A DNA stretch of 64,000 nt from Pseudophaeobacter arcticus DSM 23566 (GTDB lineage Bacteria; Pseudomonadota; Alphaproteobacteria; Rhodobacterales; Rhodobacteraceae), in contig NZ_AXBF01000004.1 of NCBI RefSeq assembly GCF_000473205.1, forward strand, positions 124,001 to 188,000. The letters run 5' to 3'. The position numbers and the translations under genes are program-made. Below are positions 56,254 to 63,445 of this stretch, in pieces. The first letter of the stretch is position 1, and every line of letters starts with the position of its first letter. Below the pieces are notes generated by a model. That model searched no databases, had not been told where the DNA came from, and was given only the letters and a program-made list of their open reading frames with translations.

Positions 56254-56931
56254 ATGCACTATTCGGCTGATCGTGTATCCGGCGTTTTCTTTCTGCTCTT
56301 TGGACTTGCCATGTATTTCCTGGTGGTGCCCAACTACGTAGAGACAGTCACAGGCAGCAACCTGGCCCCAAAGACGCTTCCCAATGTCATTTCCATCGTC
56401 CTTGCCCTCGTCGGCGCGGTGCCTGGCATTGGCCCGATCATGGCCATGGCCATCGCGATCCCTTTTACATTTGCGCTCGACCCGCTGGTGGCAATTTCGT
56501 TTCTCGTCGGTGTCAACAAAGGCGGGCTTGTCGGCGGCGCGGTGCCTGCGGTGTTGATGAACACCCCCGGCACCCCGGACGCCGCCGCAACCGCCCTGGA
56601 TGGCTATCCGCTGGCCAAACAGGGCAAGCCGCTGAAAGCCACCAAGATGGCCCTGTTTTCGTCGATTACCGGGGACACCTTCAGCGACATCGTTTTGATC
56701 ACGGTTTCAGCCCCGCTGGCCATTCTGGCGCTGAAAATGGGCCCGATCGAGATCGTCGCTCTGATGATCTTTGCCTTTTCCGTTCTCGCAGGGCTAATCG
56801 GAAATTCTCTGGTCAGGCCCCGCGCCGTGGCTTGGCATCAGCGGTCGGCCTACCGCCTCGGAAAGGAAGACCCATGTCGATCTGAACCTGTCTGGGGGCG
56901 TCTCGCTGTCGGCCTATGCACGACCCTTTGA
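56254..56931 (+). pseudogene. TctB-TctA deletion fusion (tripartite tricarboxylate transporter)
   Basis: TCAGGAGGAC gives a strong start. Residues 1-53 (SADRVSGVFFLLFGLAMYFL) are a TctB small-permease start. The frame then runs without a break into TctA: VPGIGPIMAMAIAIPFTFAL, MNTPGTPDAAATALDGYPLA and GPIEIVALMIFAFSVLAGLI. Thus ~100 residues of TctB and the first ~40 of TctA are gone, and TctA stops ~300 residues early at the junction near 56820 with unrelated sequence. The binding-protein gene (TctC) is not recognisable upstream. Confidence 0.8.
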
Positions 56932-57295
56932 TCTGGTTGTGACCGGAGCCCATAGCCATATTGAGAACGAAGAACATCTGTCAGCCAACCCGGACCTGAT
57001 CGCCCTGCGCAGCGGCCGCCCGGTGCTGGTGGTCCCCGATGGCTATGTGGCCCCGGCGCCGGGCAGTGAGGTGCGGTTGCGCAACCTTGAACGCCACGGG
57101 ATCCAGGAAAATCTGCTGGTGAGATCGCGCCATAAATCCATCGCCAAGACCATTCTGACCACCGCGCGCAACGAGGGCGCCAAGGTCGTGATCATGGGCG
57201 CCTTTGAACACTCGAAATTCAGCCACGATGTGTTTGGCGGCGTGACGACGGATGTGATTGGCGAAAACGACGTGCCAGTGCTGCTGTCGCATTGA
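56874..57295 (+). pseudogene. UspA-family universal stress protein, internally deleted
   Basis: AAGGAAGACCC followed by ATG TCG ATC at 56874 looks like a real uspA start, but a stop follows at once. Another frame then reads GVSLSAYARPFDLVVTGAH, then GRPVLVVPDGYVAPAPGSEV and the C-terminus AKVVIMGAFEHSKFSHDVFG with VTTDVIGENDVPVLLSH to the stop at 57295. About 100 residues after the first codons are missing. Such uspA genes commonly accompany TctABC transporter loci. Confidence 0.7.
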
Positions 57296-57431
57296 TCCAC
57301 CGTTTCCAGGCCTGACGGACACCCCCGGCCTTTCGCCGGCCCAAGCGGCGACGGACTTGGTGGCGTTTTTGGGCTGGAAAACCCCGCATATCTGGCCAAT
57401 ACATTTGACAGTTAGCGCAACAGGAGACCCC

Positions 57432-58550
57432 ATGACACAGCAGATCGGCATCGGCCCGAATACACGTAAATCCGTGTATTTTGACGCAACCATTGCAGCT
57501 GGGGTGGCCAGCTTTTCTGTCTATAATCACATGCTTATCCCAGCCCATTTTGGAGATCCCCAGGCAGAATATGATAGCCTGATGACGGGGGTTGCGATTT
57601 GGGATGTCGCCGCGCAGCGGCAGGTGGAAATTTCTGGCCCCGATGCGCGCGCGCTGATCCAATATCTGACCACCCGCAATATGAGCAAAACCAGGATCGG
57701 TCAGGGACGCTATGTGCCGATCTGCGATCACGCGGGGACTTTGATCAATGATCCGGTGCTTTTGATGCTCGAGGAAAACCGCTATTGGCTGTCCATCGCT
57801 GACAGCGATATTGGGCTCTGGGCCAGCGCCATTGCCGCCGAACGCGGGCTGGATGTCAGGGTTCATGAACCGGATGTCTCTCCGCTTGCGATCCAGGGCC
57901 CCAAGGCTGAGACGCTGGTGGCTGAGCTGTTTGGCGATTGGGTCAAAGGGCTCAAATACTTTGGCTTCAAACAGACCGATCTACAGGGTATTCCGCTGAT
58001 CCTGTCCCGCTCTGGCTGGTCAAAACAGGGTGGGTTTGAACTATACCTGCAAGACGGCAGCCGCGGCTCGGAATTGTGGGCCATCGTAAAAGCAGCCGGC
58101 GCGGCCTATGGTATCCGCCCCGGCGCCCCCAATGATCTGGAACGTATCGAAAGCGGGTTGGTATCCTATGGTGCCGATGGGCGCATTCAGACAAACCCTT
58201 GCAACCCCTTTGAAATATCGCTGGGCAAGCTGGTGGATCTGGATCGCCCGGATGATTTTGTCGGCAAGGCCGCGTTGCAAAAGATCAAGGCAGAGGGCAT
58301 CAAGCGCCGCCGCGTCGGGTATGTGATCGCCGGGGCAGCCATCGAAAGTTTCCAACATTCCTTGCCAGTTCAGACATCTGACGGCCAAATTGTGGGGCTG
58401 CTCAGCGAGGCGGTCTATTCACCTCGGTTTGTGGGGAATATCGGGGTGGGAATGATTGCATCAGAGATTGATGAGGGCGCAACAGATTTGAGTGTCATGC
58501 TGGATCAAGCGCCGCGCAAAGTCACCATTCGACCCCTGCCGTTTGAGTGA
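57432..58550 (+). CDS. GcvT-family aminomethyltransferase, DmdA-like (DMSP demethylase or paralogue)
   Basis: 372 residues, the length of DmdA. It shares features with dimethylsulfoniopropionate demethylase: FSVYNHMLIPAHFGDP, IWDVAAQRQVEISGPDA, DVSPLAIQGPKAETLVAELF, LSRSGWSKQGGFELYLQDGS and PNDLERIESGLVSYG. These also occur in close GcvT paralogues that do not demethylate DMSP, and residue-level separation by eye is unsafe. DmdA passes a methyl group from DMSP to tetrahydrofolate. The acyl-CoA dehydrogenase nearby and MttB at 60924 fit a theme of one-carbon or methylated-sulfur metabolism. Confidence 0.8.
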   Translation: MTQQIGIGPNTRKSVYFDATIAAGVASFSVYNHMLIPAHFGDPQAEYDSLMTGVAIWDVAAQRQVEISGPDARALIQYLTTRNMSKTRIGQGRYVPICDHAGTLINDPVLLMLEENRYWLSIADSDIGLWASAIAAERGLDVRVHEPDVSPLAIQGPKAETLVAELFGDWVKGLKYFGFKQTDLQGIPLILSRSGWSKQGGFELYLQDGSRGSELWAIVKAAGAAYGIRPGAPNDLERIESGLVSYGADGRIQTNPCNPFEISLGKLVDLDRPDDFVGKAALQKIKAEGIKRRRVGYVIAGAAIESFQHSLPVQTSDGQIVGLLSEAVYSPRFVGNIGVGMIASEIDEGATDLSVMLDQAPRKVTIRPLPFE

Positions 58551-58724: not shown

Positions 58725-59747
58725 TTAGGCCCCGACCTGCGTAGTGGCCTGCGGGTCGTCTTTTTGCATGCCCTGTTCAAAAAACAGATGCTGCGAGCGC
58801 CCCGCCCGTTTTGCCGCGTAAAGCGCCAGATCCGCCTGATGCAACATGGCCGCAGCCTCAACCGGTGCTGCGTTCCAGATCGACAGAGTGGTGCCGGCAC
58901 TGGCCGAAACCTTGCACAGCCTGCCGCTGTAGGGCACAGGCTCTTCCAGACGACTGATCAGGCGTTTTGACAAGGCCTCAAGAATTTTTGGCTCATTCAC
59001 GCCGCCAAAAATGATCACAAATTCATCGCCGCCAACACGGGCCACGGTATCGGTGTGGCGGGTGCAATCAACCATCACCTGGGCAACACTTTGCAAAACG
59101 GCATCCCCGGCGGCATGGCCGAGGGTATCGTTGACCTCTTTGAAGTAATCCAGGTCCACATGCATCAGCGCAAAATCGGTGCCAGAGCCAATCAGGCGGT
59201 TAAGGATGTGATCCATGGCGCGACGATTCTTGAGACCGGTCAGGGTGTCGGTAAAGGCCTGTTCTTCGGCGGCAATCTTGGCCCCTTGCAGGCGCAAATT
59301 CAGCTGTCGCGAAGCCTCCATGGCGGCCGATTTTGCCTCAACCAGATACAGCATCTCGATTGTCAGATCCGTAGGCGAGAAATCCGCGCTGGTCAGATCA
59401 TAATCGCGCACGGCCTCAAGCACCGAGATACCAAACGACAGGTTGATCAGGGCACCTTTGCCACCTGGCAGCGGTGCCAAGACGCCTTTTAGGCTGGTTT
59501 GTGGTGACTCGCGAAACTGCATGTGCAATTTGGAGCCTGCGGTTTTGAGCAGGTCATCCATGGAATTGACCCAGCGGGGGCGCAACAGATCAAAAACGTC
59601 AAAGAACTTCTTTCCCTTCCAGCCCATGTCAGGACGAAGTTTTTTCAGCGTCGGACCCGCAAAGCGAATGCGCCCGGCGGCGTCTACGACAAGGTACATC
59701 GGACAGATTTGGTCAATGATACCGGTCAGCTCATCCGCAGTCATCAT
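58725..59747 (-). CDS. Diguanylate cyclase with H-NOX-associated domain
   Basis: 340 residues. Residues ~1-135 match the HNOBA domain of H-NOX-linked signalling proteins (LTGIIDQICPMYLVVDAAGR, GPTLKKLRPD). A short coiled coil (~140-165) leads to a GGDEF domain with TDTLTGLKNRRAMD, DLDYFKEVNDTLGHAAGD and the active site ARVGGDEFVIIFGG. RHTD lies exactly five residues before GGDEF, so the inhibitory I-site is intact. It should make c-di-GMP under control of the H-NOX partner, whose gene overlaps it by 4 nt. Confidence 0.92.
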   Translation of the reverse strand: MMTADELTGIIDQICPMYLVVDAAGRIRFAGPTLKKLRPDMGWKGKKFFDVFDLLRPRWVNSMDDLLKTAGSKLHMQFRESPQTSLKGVLAPLPGGKGALINLSFGISVLEAVRDYDLTSADFSPTDLTIEMLYLVEAKSAAMEASRQLNLRLQGAKIAAEEQAFTDTLTGLKNRRAMDHILNRLIGSGTDFALMHVDLDYFKEVNDTLGHAAGDAVLQSVAQVMVDCTRHTDTVARVGGDEFVIIFGGVNEPKILEALSKRLISRLEEPVPYSGRLCKVSASAGTTLSIWNAAPVEAAAMLHQADLALYAAKRAGRSQHLFFEQGMQKDDPQATTQVGA

Positions 59748-60331
59748 AGGGCGTGGGCTCCCAAGTCAAAAGTACGTCCTTCGGCGAAATCCGTTTCAAC
59801 AAGCGTAATCGAGATCACCTCTGCACCGCCTTGTGTACCGCGATGATCAAGAATGACCAGATCGCCATAGTCATCCGCCATAGCGCGCAGAACGCCCATC
59901 AGGACATAGGCAAACCCAGGCAGGCCGGGTTGGCATACCAGATCAAACTGGCCCGGTGAGTTCTCAACCAGCTCAATGGCAGGCAGATGCAGATCGGCCA
60001 CCGCCAAGCGGGCGCGGTCTGGCAGATCATCCAGCGAATGCAGGAATTCCACATAGTTGACGCCGCCAAACCTCAGCAGGCGACGCAGGGCTTCAACCTG
60101 CGGATTGGACACCAGGAACGTGCCCGTGTCCTCAAGTATTTCTGGCAGCGGGCGTTCCAGCGATTTTTCCATAGCAGAGAGCATCTTGTTGGACTGCTCA
60201 TCAGTATAGAACAACATGGCCTCGAACTGAGCAAAGCCAAGATCCGCAGTATCCATAATATCGCTCCACCGTTCCTCCCCGTAGGTACTAACGACGAATG
60301 CCTGAATCGCTCTGTTGATCAGACCATGCAT
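59744..60331 (-). CDS. H-NOX-fold protein apparently lacking the heme ligand
   Basis: 195 residues, H-NOX length. The start HGLINRAIQAFVVSTYGEERW and VNYVEFLHSLDD are clearly H-NOX. Canonical members have a proximal histidine in an (N/D)xLHxR context; here the same place reads LDDLPDRARL, with proline at 104. The YxSxR motif that binds the heme propionates is also absent from the expected place (LVCQPGLPGF, ~131-140). This suggests a sensor that does not bind heme in the usual way. H98, two turns before, is the nearest histidine. It is coupled to the diguanylate cyclase gene. Confidence 0.82.
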   Translation of the reverse strand: MHGLINRAIQAFVVSTYGEERWSDIMDTADLGFAQFEAMLFYTDEQSNKMLSAMEKSLERPLPEILEDTGTFLVSNPQVEALRRLLRFGGVNYVEFLHSLDDLPDRARLAVADLHLPAIELVENSPGQFDLVCQPGLPGFAYVLMGVLRAMADDYGDLVILDHRGTQGGAEVISITLVETDFAEGRTFDLGAHAL

Positions 60332-60923: not shown

Positions 60924-62477
60924 CTAGAAGTCGGTTGGCGCCCCGCCTTCTGATTTTCGGCGGGCAACAAAATCCTTCAACTCGTCATGCAGGGCGTCGT
61001 CCATCGGCGGCGGGGTGAACTCCTGCAGAATCTCCTTGTAGATCTGGTTGGCCCGCTGCGGGGTCCAGACGGCTCCGGCGGCCTCCCAGGCTTCGTAATT
61101 GCGCCAATCGCTCAGGAAGGGTTGGTAAAAGGCGGTGGCGTAGCGATCCTGCGTGTGTTGGATACCAAAGAAATGCCCCTCGTTTCCAACCTCGCGCACC
61201 GCGTCAAAGGCAATCTCCTCCGGTCCGGTAGCGCAGATTTCTGGCTGCATGTAGCGTTGAATTTGCTGCAGAACTTCACAATCCATAATGAATTTTTCCG
61301 GGCTGGCGATCAGCCCGCCTTCCAGCCAACCTGCTGCGTGGTAAACCATATTGGTCCCCGACTGCACCGCCGCCCAGAGCGAATTTGAAGTCTCCCACAT
61401 GGCCTGCCCGTCGGGCACATTGGCAGCACAAACCCCAGAGGAGCGCATCGGCAGGCCATAGTGGCGGGCCATCTGCCCCGTCATCTGCGTCGCGCGCATG
61501 TATTCGGGGGTGCCAAAGGCCGGGGCGCCGGACTTCATATCCACATTTGAGGTAAAGGTGCCAATGGCACAGGGGGTGCCAGGGCGGACATATTGAAACA
61601 GCGCAATGGCACAGAGCGCCTCGGCCAGGCTTTGCGCCACAGCGCCCGCCATGGTGACCGGCGCCATCGCCCCCGCCAGGGTAAAGGGCGTCACCACCAC
61701 CGCCTGCCCCCGGCGCACCAGCCGCAGGCAGCCGTCAATCATCGGATAGTCGTGTTTCAGCGGCGAGGTGGAGTTGATGTTGGTGTACATCCGCGGCGTG
61801 GCTTCGAACTCTTCATCCGTGAGCCCCCCGGCGATGCGCACCATTTCCATCACATCTTCGACCCGCTCTTTGCCCAGCGAATAGGCATGCATCGCCTTGT
61901 CGGTCAGCGTCAGCTTGTCATAGAGCACATCCAGATGGCGCACCGAGGCATGGATATCCACCGGTTCCACCGGGTAGCCACCGGCAAAATGGATGCAGTT
62001 GAAATACTGCGTCAGCTTGAGCAGATTGCGGCATTGCGCGCGGTTGCCAGCCACCTTTTTCCCCAGATCCATATCCCAGTAGTTGGGCGGCGAAGACACA
62101 TTGCCAAAAAGCAGGTTGGTGCCGCCAATCGGGATGGTCCGCTCCGGGTTGCGTGGTGTGATGGTGAACTGGCTTGGCGCCTTCCCCACCATCTCCATGA
62201 CAAAGTCCCGGTCCATCCGTACCAGATCCCCCTCAACCCGGCATCCGGCCTGTTTCAGGATCTCCAGCGCCTCAGGATTGAGAAAGACAATGCCGATCTC
62301 TTCCAGGATCCGCATGGCACCATCGTGGATTGCAGCAATGCCCTCTTCGGTCAAAGGCGCGATGGGGCGGTCAATGTTTTGCGGAATGTGCCAGGGCATC
62401 TGTTGCAACGCTGCTGTGCCGCGCCGCGCGGCAGCGCCGGCGCGTCCCCCCCCTCGTCTGCCGTTATCCCGTGCCAT
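60924..62477 (-). CDS. Trimethylamine methyltransferase superfamily protein (MttB, non-pyrrolysine)
   Basis: 517 residues from the ATG at 62477, preceded by AAGGAGAGG. The N-terminus is Arg/Gly/Ala-rich (GRRGGGRAGAAARRG) before the MttB core, with GGTNLLFGNVSSPPNYWDMD, NINSTSPLKHDYPMIDGCL and GNEGHFFGIQHTQDRY. No in-frame TAG is present, so pyrrolysine is not used; such homologues act on glycine betaine, carnitine, proline betaine and similar compounds with a corrinoid protein. No corrinoid-protein gene is visible in the window, so the partner must lie elsewhere. Confidence 0.9.
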   Translation of the reverse strand: MARDNGRRGGGRAGAAARRGTAALQQMPWHIPQNIDRPIAPLTEEGIAAIHDGAMRILEEIGIVFLNPEALEILKQAGCRVEGDLVRMDRDFVMEMVGKAPSQFTITPRNPERTIPIGGTNLLFGNVSSPPNYWDMDLGKKVAGNRAQCRNLLKLTQYFNCIHFAGGYPVEPVDIHASVRHLDVLYDKLTLTDKAMHAYSLGKERVEDVMEMVRIAGGLTDEEFEATPRMYTNINSTSPLKHDYPMIDGCLRLVRRGQAVVVTPFTLAGAMAPVTMAGAVAQSLAEALCAIALFQYVRPGTPCAIGTFTSNVDMKSGAPAFGTPEYMRATQMTGQMARHYGLPMRSSGVCAANVPDGQAMWETSNSLWAAVQSGTNMVYHAAGWLEGGLIASPEKFIMDCEVLQQIQRYMQPEICATGPEEIAFDAVREVGNEGHFFGIQHTQDRYATAFYQPFLSDWRNYEAWEAAGAVWTPQRANQIYKEILQEFTPPPMDDALHDELKDFVARRKSEGGAPTDF

Positions 62478-62644
62478 GAGCCTCTCCTTGGTGGTTCTGA
62501 GCGAACGCGCTGGCTGAGCCCCGCGCGCCGCCGGGGGCGCCCGGCAGAGTCTCAGCAGGCCCAATCAAAACGGATGACGGCTGCCAGTTCACGACATCTC
62601 GTGTCGTTTTTTCACCTCAATCCGGCTGAAACAGCCTTTTCTGT

Positions 62645-62755: not shown

Positions 62756-63445
62756 TCAGCGATCCAGCCACTCGGGGATATGCCCGATATGCGGCAGCAC
62801 CACATCCGCATGAGGGGCCAGATCGTCATGTTCTGCCATGCCGGTCAGCACGCCGATCCGGGTCATGCCGGCGGCCTGGCCGGCGATGAGATCATGCAGG
62901 CTGTCGCCCACCATAGCCGTCTGTTCCGGTGCAATGCCAGTCGCCGCACAAAAGGCCAGCAGAGGATCCGCATCCGGCTTGGCGCCATGCCCACTGTCAA
63001 AGCCGGCCACAAAGGCAAAACGATCCAACACACCCGAGCGTTCGAGCTGGCTGATGGCAGAAATCTCTGCATCATTGGTCATCACCCCCAGCACCTTGCC
63101 ACGGGCCAGCAGCCCATCCAGAAAGGCCGCCAGCGGCACCGCCTCACTTAGCGCGGCGGTTGCTGCGCTTTGGGCCAGGAAACGCTCCAGCTCGGCCTCT
63201 TCCATCTGCGGAACAAAAGGCGCCAGGACAGCGGCCACCTCGCCATTGGTGCCGGCAATGACCATGCTGTCAGCCCGAAAGGCCTGCTGCTCTTGATCAA
63301 AACTGATTACTTCGGCCATGGCGGTTGCCCGCGCCGGATCTCCCTGGCTCAGCTGCGCCAGCATATCCGCCGCCCAGGCGTTCCAGGTGGCGGAGAAATC
63401 AAACAGGGTTCCGTCCTTGTCGAAGAGAAAAGCATCTACCGGCAT
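62756..63445 (-). CDS. HAD-superfamily phosphatase (phosphoglycolate-phosphatase-like)
   Basis: 229 residues. Motif I is DAFLFDKDGTLFDF (nucleophile Asp and second Asp), motif II lies in VLGVMTNDAE, the motif III lysine in GHGAKPDADPLLAF, and motif IV is MVGDSLHDLIAGQAAG. The family hydrolyses phosphoglycolate or related phosphate esters; the substrate is not determinable from sequence. Single gene with its own terminator. Confidence 0.9.
   Translation of the reverse strand: MPVDAFLFDKDGTLFDFSATWNAWAADMLAQLSQGDPARATAMAEVISFDQEQQAFRADSMVIAGTNGEVAAVLAPFVPQMEEAELERFLAQSAATAALSEAVPLAAFLDGLLARGKVLGVMTNDAEISAISQLERSGVLDRFAFVAGFDSGHGAKPDADPLLAFCAATGIAPEQTAMVGDSLHDLIAGQAAGMTRIGVLTGMAEHDDLAPHADVVLPHIGHIPEWLDR

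Follow-up and report, generated by a model that had tools for sequence, protein, structure and literature searches.

A group 5 H-NOX protein without the proximal histidine, co-encoded with a diguanylate cyclase in Pseudophaeobacter arcticus

In a stretch of 64,000 nucleotides from Pseudophaeobacter arcticus DSM 23566 (contig NZ_AXBF01000004.1, positions 124,001 to 188,000; hereafter the window), we analyzed an hnox-like gene that overlaps the start of a diguanylate cyclase gene. Its product has a clear H-NOX fold without the proximal histidine and without the YxSxR motif of canonical H-NOX proteins. The protein is of the type collected in group 5, the fifth and very large cluster in a similarity network built from the H-NOX of P. 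denitrificans (Lee-Lopez & Yukl 2022, PMC8738867). We think it fairly probable that the window protein is a heme-independent H-NOX subunit regulating its cyclase. This reading is judged the likeliest because the heme-holding residues were lost under strong selection and because the gene is strictly paired with an intact cyclase. The gene and the sites in question are the following.

59744..60331, minus strand: hnox-like gene, 195 residues, HNOB fold, group 5 proline type (open reading frame, Pfam, predicted model, H-NOX matches in the PDB)
60326..60328, minus strand: codon for His2, a nearly invariant residue of group 5
60020..60022, minus strand: codon CCA of Pro104, at the position of the proximal histidine (Nostoc alignment, 206-protein alignment, sequence)
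60002..60055, minus strand: residues 93–110, the proximal-ligand helix of canonical H-NOX (DSSP on the model, conservation)
59921..59935, minus strand: CQPGL, residues 133–137, at the place of YxSxR (alignments, sequence)
59762..59779, minus strand: conserved C-terminal tail GRxFxL, residues 185–190 (group 5 counts; model confidence low)

Residues 2–157 match the Pfam profile HNOB with 77.7 bits (1.2e-21; cut-off 25.5), the predicted model reaches a local distance difference test score (pLDDT) of 89.2 and a template modeling score (pTM) of 0.84, and the PDB matches include H-NOX structures. The alignment with the Nostoc H-NOX (4iah, 1.6e-14) begins at residue 1, the same methionine, in both proteins. 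It is free of gaps around the ligand site, where P104 faces the proximal histidine of NLDNLHARVGL, and the Nostoc stretch HYQSTR aligns with VCQPGL, turning YxSxR into CxPxL. A MAFFT alignment of 206 proteins yields the same placement of both sites. In the model, helix 93–110 is predicted to run continuously across Pro104, and pLDDT is 52 and 48 in the final two blocks, the region of the C-terminal tail. A sequence-only reading of this DNA had claimed that proline replaces the histidine, that YxSxR is missing and that the fold is kept; all of this is borne out, and an alignment with known H-NOX proteins, in which a rival histidine was sought at the proximal position, places none there. Its doubt about nitric oxide (NO) sensing through a His-ligated heme was right as well, given the loss of His and YxSxR. 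The genome itself holds a single HNOB match, of the group 5 type, besides one HNOBA and five GGDEF matches, and a search of it with the FIST (NosP) profile gave zero matches.

The partner gene lies directly downstream on the same strand.

58725..59747, minus strand: diguanylate cyclase gene, 340 residues, HNOBA-like N-terminal domain and GGDEF domain (open reading frame, Pfam, homologue downstream in relatives)
59744..59747, minus strand: ATGA, four-base overlap of hnox stop and cyclase start (sequence)
59499..59720, minus strand: HNOBA-like domain, residues 10–83 (27.9 bits, cut-off 23.4)
59049..59060, minus strand: RHTD, I-site motif RxxD (sequence; RxxD in 244 of 247 partners)
59019..59033, minus strand: GGDEF active-site motif (sequence; GGDEF in 244 of 247 partners)

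The HNOBA match barely exceeds its cut-off, and the GGDEF domain scores 137.4 bits in Pfam. Both hallmarks of an active diguanylate cyclase, the GGDEF motif and the RxxD I-site, are present in the frame, which makes it a candidate for a working enzyme. The four-base overlap suggests translational coupling of the two genes; an offset of −4 is also the most frequent one among relatives whose cyclase match begins at the first residues (the offset and the motif counts come from an earlier set of 247 partner cyclases). Furthermore, an HNOBA-GGDEF homologue follows downstream on the same strand at 246 of 248 loci whose H-NOX bears the arginine signature of group 5, and at the two others the sequence stops at a contig edge, 108 and 136 bases past the hnox stop. 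The earlier claims of a coupling to an HNOBA-GGDEF protein and of an intact I-site thus hold.

How common the proline type is was assessed among 394 Rhodobacteraceae genomes. HNOB matches occur in 296 of them and matches to the window protein in 288, a few of the latter via a canonical H-NOX only. The alignment comprised 271 distinct HNOB proteins from the fetched loci, later 277 plus Nostoc, and the arginine signature R83-R84-R87, which is independent of the heme residues, served as the mark of group 5; 248 rows carry it. This sample is not random, as the loci were chosen by score and 80 of them, among the matches listed, by nearness to an alignment led by the H-NOX of Dinoroseobacter shibae, which favors His-bearers. 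The 30 rows without the signature are 27 canonical ones, L077, L328 and the fragment L025. Of the 30 loci L032–L061, 18 are in the final alignment and the other 12 fell below the profile threshold or were duplicates (one of them of L030), so that the canonical set is incomplete.

Among the 248 proteins, the proximal site holds Pro in 182 and His in 26, followed by Ser (10), Gln (7), Arg (5), Ala and Gly (4 each), Thr, Asn and Lys (2 each) and Glu, Asp, Tyr and Val (1 each); that is, 40 proteins carry one of 12 different residues other than Pro or His. In the 120 proteins nearest to the window protein it is Pro in 118 and Ser in 2. Around the site L103 (240/248), R106 (244/248) and A110 (245/248) are conserved. 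Because Pro, His and other residues are spread over a single position next to these, the ligand site ranks among the least constrained positions within a well conserved stretch. The tyrosine of YxSxR is retained in 4 of the 248 and the complete motif in none, and His together with the YxSxR arginine is found in two, D. shibae and L270. The 27 canonical rows look entirely different, with proximal His in 26 (Gln in one) and YSR in 26 (YHR in one). Three genomes encode two HNOB proteins each, including a canonical one that has both His and YSR (L038 in G018, L060 in G060 and L059 in G072). The H-NOX of C. sphaeroides (L208, from genome G085, in which a 3-kb stretch shows 99.6% identity to C. sphaeroides plasmids) is of the proline type.

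Other positions are near-invariant in the 248 proteins, with residues that the remaining rows seldom or never have: H2 (238), E37 (245), D68 (243), R149 (239) and D154 (245), and likewise, in the tail, G185 (239), R186 (234), F188 (248) and L190 (248), where positions 186, 188 and 190 are a gap in 27 of the 30 other rows (including Nostoc, which was entered only up to residue 156). P117 is invariant in the signature-bearing proteins. So are G70 and G146 (248 of 248 each), which we take to be the hinge glycines.

The hnox gene evolves under strong constraint. Against 12 relatives, the ratio of nonsynonymous to synonymous substitution rates (dN/dS) is 0.02–0.17, where dS exceeds 1 in 9 of the 12 comparisons and only the order of magnitude counts. 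All four proline codons occur at the proximal site across relatives. Given these two observations, Pro104 is due neither to chance nor to decay. A tree was rooted on nine His-bearing rows, namely five from other alphaproteobacterial families, which retain His and YSR, three canonical Rhodobacteraceae proteins and Nostoc; the fragment L025 was omitted from all trees and L229 from this one. Here, group 5 forms a single clade (support 99), and the window protein falls within a clade of 151 with Pro in 129 (support 81). The ancestral state at the base of group 5 is a tie between Pro, His and other residues (41/41/41), the early side branches are rich in His and, in an earlier tree, His at the proximal site changes at least 12 times within the group. 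The simplest account would be that the propionate motif was lost first, in the common ancestor of group 5, and the proximal His later and repeatedly, the latter on branches of modest support. A previous tree, for which distant canonical proteins served as the root, intermixed these with group 5 rows and was set aside. We also rejected a covariation of His104 with Trp or His at the serine place of YxSxR: 20 of the 26 His-bearers have Trp or His there, and independent pairs on the tree were unsupportive (5 pairs, median p 1).

With this in mind, we propose that proline-type group 5 proteins no longer hold heme via the proximal His and YxSxR, and that the H-NOX would instead be a dedicated protein subunit of the co-encoded diguanylate cyclase. 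It would bind the cyclase at its HNOBA domain and keep the enzyme's activity down; regulation by contact is probably inhibition, where we infer the direct binding, the inhibition and the true input alike. The absent Fe–His bond may mimic the His-released state that NO causes in ordinary H-NOX proteins. Such a likeness of a missing histidine to the activated state is drawn by analogy, since the H105C variant of human soluble guanylate cyclase (sGC) beta is heme-free and resembles the activated enzyme (PMC8196705). The inhibiting state would then be constitutive or set by something besides NO, and the output would depend on gene dose, which the ctrA pathway controls in relatives, or on a second input. 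Dose may matter because, in both P. inhibens and D. shibae, mutants of the ctrA pathway have one dgc downregulated together with the hnox associated with it (PMC12363192). In the window, a search for the CtrA-type site TTAA-N6..8-TTAAC gave zero matches, and a promoter scan returned 2 promoter-like sites against 1.3 expected and is not used as evidence. An activated-like shape of the predicted model was also discarded as evidence after a His-type control.

Heme could, on the other hand, still be bound in another way, via His2, via Cys133 at the old tyrosine place, via H98 or with no protein ligand at all, and NO or another gas be sensed. His2 is present in 238 of the 248 signature-bearing proteins and in all 120 nearest ones, and is absent from all 28 rows classed as canonical. 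Cys133 is present in all 120 nearest and in 155 overall. Moreover, the columns that we take to line the heme pocket are mostly hydrophobic, P117 is invariant, and the literature refers to the D. shibae protein as a heme/NO sensor. Yet the residues that hold the propionates are lost, the heme of the D. shibae protein, which has the proximal His and the arginine, tells little about the proline type, and the orientation of His2 towards the pocket is presumed from helix geometry. Altogether, we regard retained heme as unlikely. If a substitute histidine exists, His2 appears the better candidate than H98 because it is better conserved. H98, put forward by the sequence-only reading as an alternative ligand, is a weak choice and judged unlikely: the position holds His in 179 of the 248 (Tyr in 19, Gln in 18) and in none of 22 proteins set apart as canonical, and the D. 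shibae protein, itself a His-bearer at the proximal site, has Asp there. A wider scenario, in which group 5 is a gas sensor turned heme-free switch, appears more doubtful again. Here YxSxR would have gone first and His repeatedly after, so that the inhibiting, "His-released" state became fixed. Inhibition of the cyclase would now be set by the GRxFxL tail or by a new input, either a small molecule in the emptied pocket or chemistry at His2 or Cys133, and D. shibae would be an intermediate that still responds to NO.

Slightly less probable still is that the emptied pocket binds some other small molecule, perhaps a hydrophobic one, and makes the protein a non-gas sensor for the cyclase. That hnox is decaying or inert and the cyclase acts alone is very improbable. 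The loss of the heme-holding residues would fit decay, as would the hnox orthologue of a genome of the same genus (G001, L025/L031, C45:80653-81235), which matches in three pieces and is frameshifted or misassembled. Against decay stand the low dN/dS, the near-universal pairing with the cyclase, the matches in 288 of the 394 family genomes (a few via a canonical H-NOX only) and the phenotype of a P. denitrificans hnoX mutant, which is partly biofilm-deficient (PMC5588039). A heme-independent subunit of the cyclase is the reading that we retain.

The neighborhood of the pair contains two further genes on the same strand.

60924..62564, minus strand: MTTB-type methyltransferase gene, upstream of hnox (Pfam, 751 bits)
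62756..63445, minus strand: HAD-type hydrolase gene (Pfam)

Beyond the cyclase, on the opposite strand, lies a GcvT-like aminomethyltransferase gene (57258–58550, plus strand), and the pair thus sits between genes of the one-carbon or methylamine type, GcvT-like on one side and MTTB on the other. Further on, at 56254–57295 (plus strand), a short open reading frame matches only positions 12–149 of 423 of the TctA profile, with the C-terminal part of a universal stress protein after it; this appears to be what is left of a tricarboxylate transporter region. A second GGDEF protein is encoded on the plus strand of the contig (G000:C1:188819-189256, a 528-residue open frame), about 0.8 kb past the window end and about 4.5 kb away from the hnox start.

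About seven in ten of the searched Rhodobacteraceae genomes match the window protein, a few via a canonical H-NOX only. The orthologue in P. inhibens (P0062) shares 78% identity with it. Sources label proteins of this type "heme NO-binding", which is probably wrong for the proline type, judging by the residues it carries, and the NO result cited for group 5 stems from the His-type protein of D. shibae. If proline-type members are indeed heme-free regulators, the control of cyclic di-GMP (c-di-GMP) in many roseobacters would need an input other than NO. Because His and Pro members with one and the same type of partner both occur in nature, the function of an H-NOX without its heme ligand can be tested directly.

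Among known systems, the pseudo-H-NOX of sGC alpha offers a precedent for a heme-free H-NOX fold in which His or YxSxR may be missing; as described in PMC8196705, however, it is a domain of a larger enzyme whose N-terminal extension fills the pocket, whereas the window protein has no such extension and starts at the same methionine as the Nostoc H-NOX. Legionella Hnox1/Lpg1057 and Shewanella woodyi H-NOX/DGC-PDE resemble our reading of the window in that an H-NOX controls a c-di-GMP enzyme, and differ in being described as NO sensors that work through heme and have c-di-GMP partners of two domains; in Legionella, too, the NO-bound H-NOX is reported to inhibit the partner cyclase.

Close in arrangement is the H-NOX/Dgc1 pair of D. 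shibae, which shares the group 5 clade, the arginine signature and the downstream cyclase gene. NO-bound D. shibae H-NOX inhibits Dgc1 (Bedrunka et al. 2018, as cited by PMC7232146 and PMC8846402; the work is also cited via PMC6473078). In genome G069, which shares an identical 3-kb stretch with plasmid records of D. shibae DFL 12, the H-NOX reads DDLHDRARLAV at the proximal site and CIWHR at the place of YxSxR, so that it has the histidine and the arginine, of which the window protein has neither. Because the D. shibae H-NOX keeps the proximal His, its NO sensing cannot simply be transferred to the proline type. In L229, which comes from a Dinoroseobacter metagenome-assembled genome, is closely related to the D. 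shibae protein and was the top match of the scan led by it, the proximal residue is Arg and the YxSxR place reads YWR, with Tyr and Arg kept and His lost; His is therefore unfixed even near D. shibae.

Finally, the window protein agrees with group 5 as described, in which the proximal His survives in fewer than 10% of the proteins, Pro stands in most and the neighboring families include GGDEF, HAD and MTTB (PMC8738867 and its figure legend). The likeness extends over the change of His to Pro, the adjacent GGDEF gene with HAD and MTTB genes nearby, the glycines and the fold, and we found no feature that sets the window protein apart from that description. The review's statement of no conserved cysteine fails for the 120 nearest proteins, in which Cys133 is invariant; across all 248 the position is Cys in 155. 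The P. denitrificans H-NOX itself has no axial histidine, like that of R. sphaeroides (Kumar & Spiro 2017, PMC5588039). In the same study, a dgcAB mutant overproduces biofilm, NO is still effective in hnoX mutants and an inhibition of DgcA by H-NOX is suggested. A search of the open-access literature, which lacks most subscription papers, found no biochemical study of a proline-type protein. The window locus is a further member of this described, little-characterized class and not an oddity of one genome, and to that class we add the site census of 248 proteins, the cyclase pairing at 246 of 248 loci and the histidine of the D. shibae protein.
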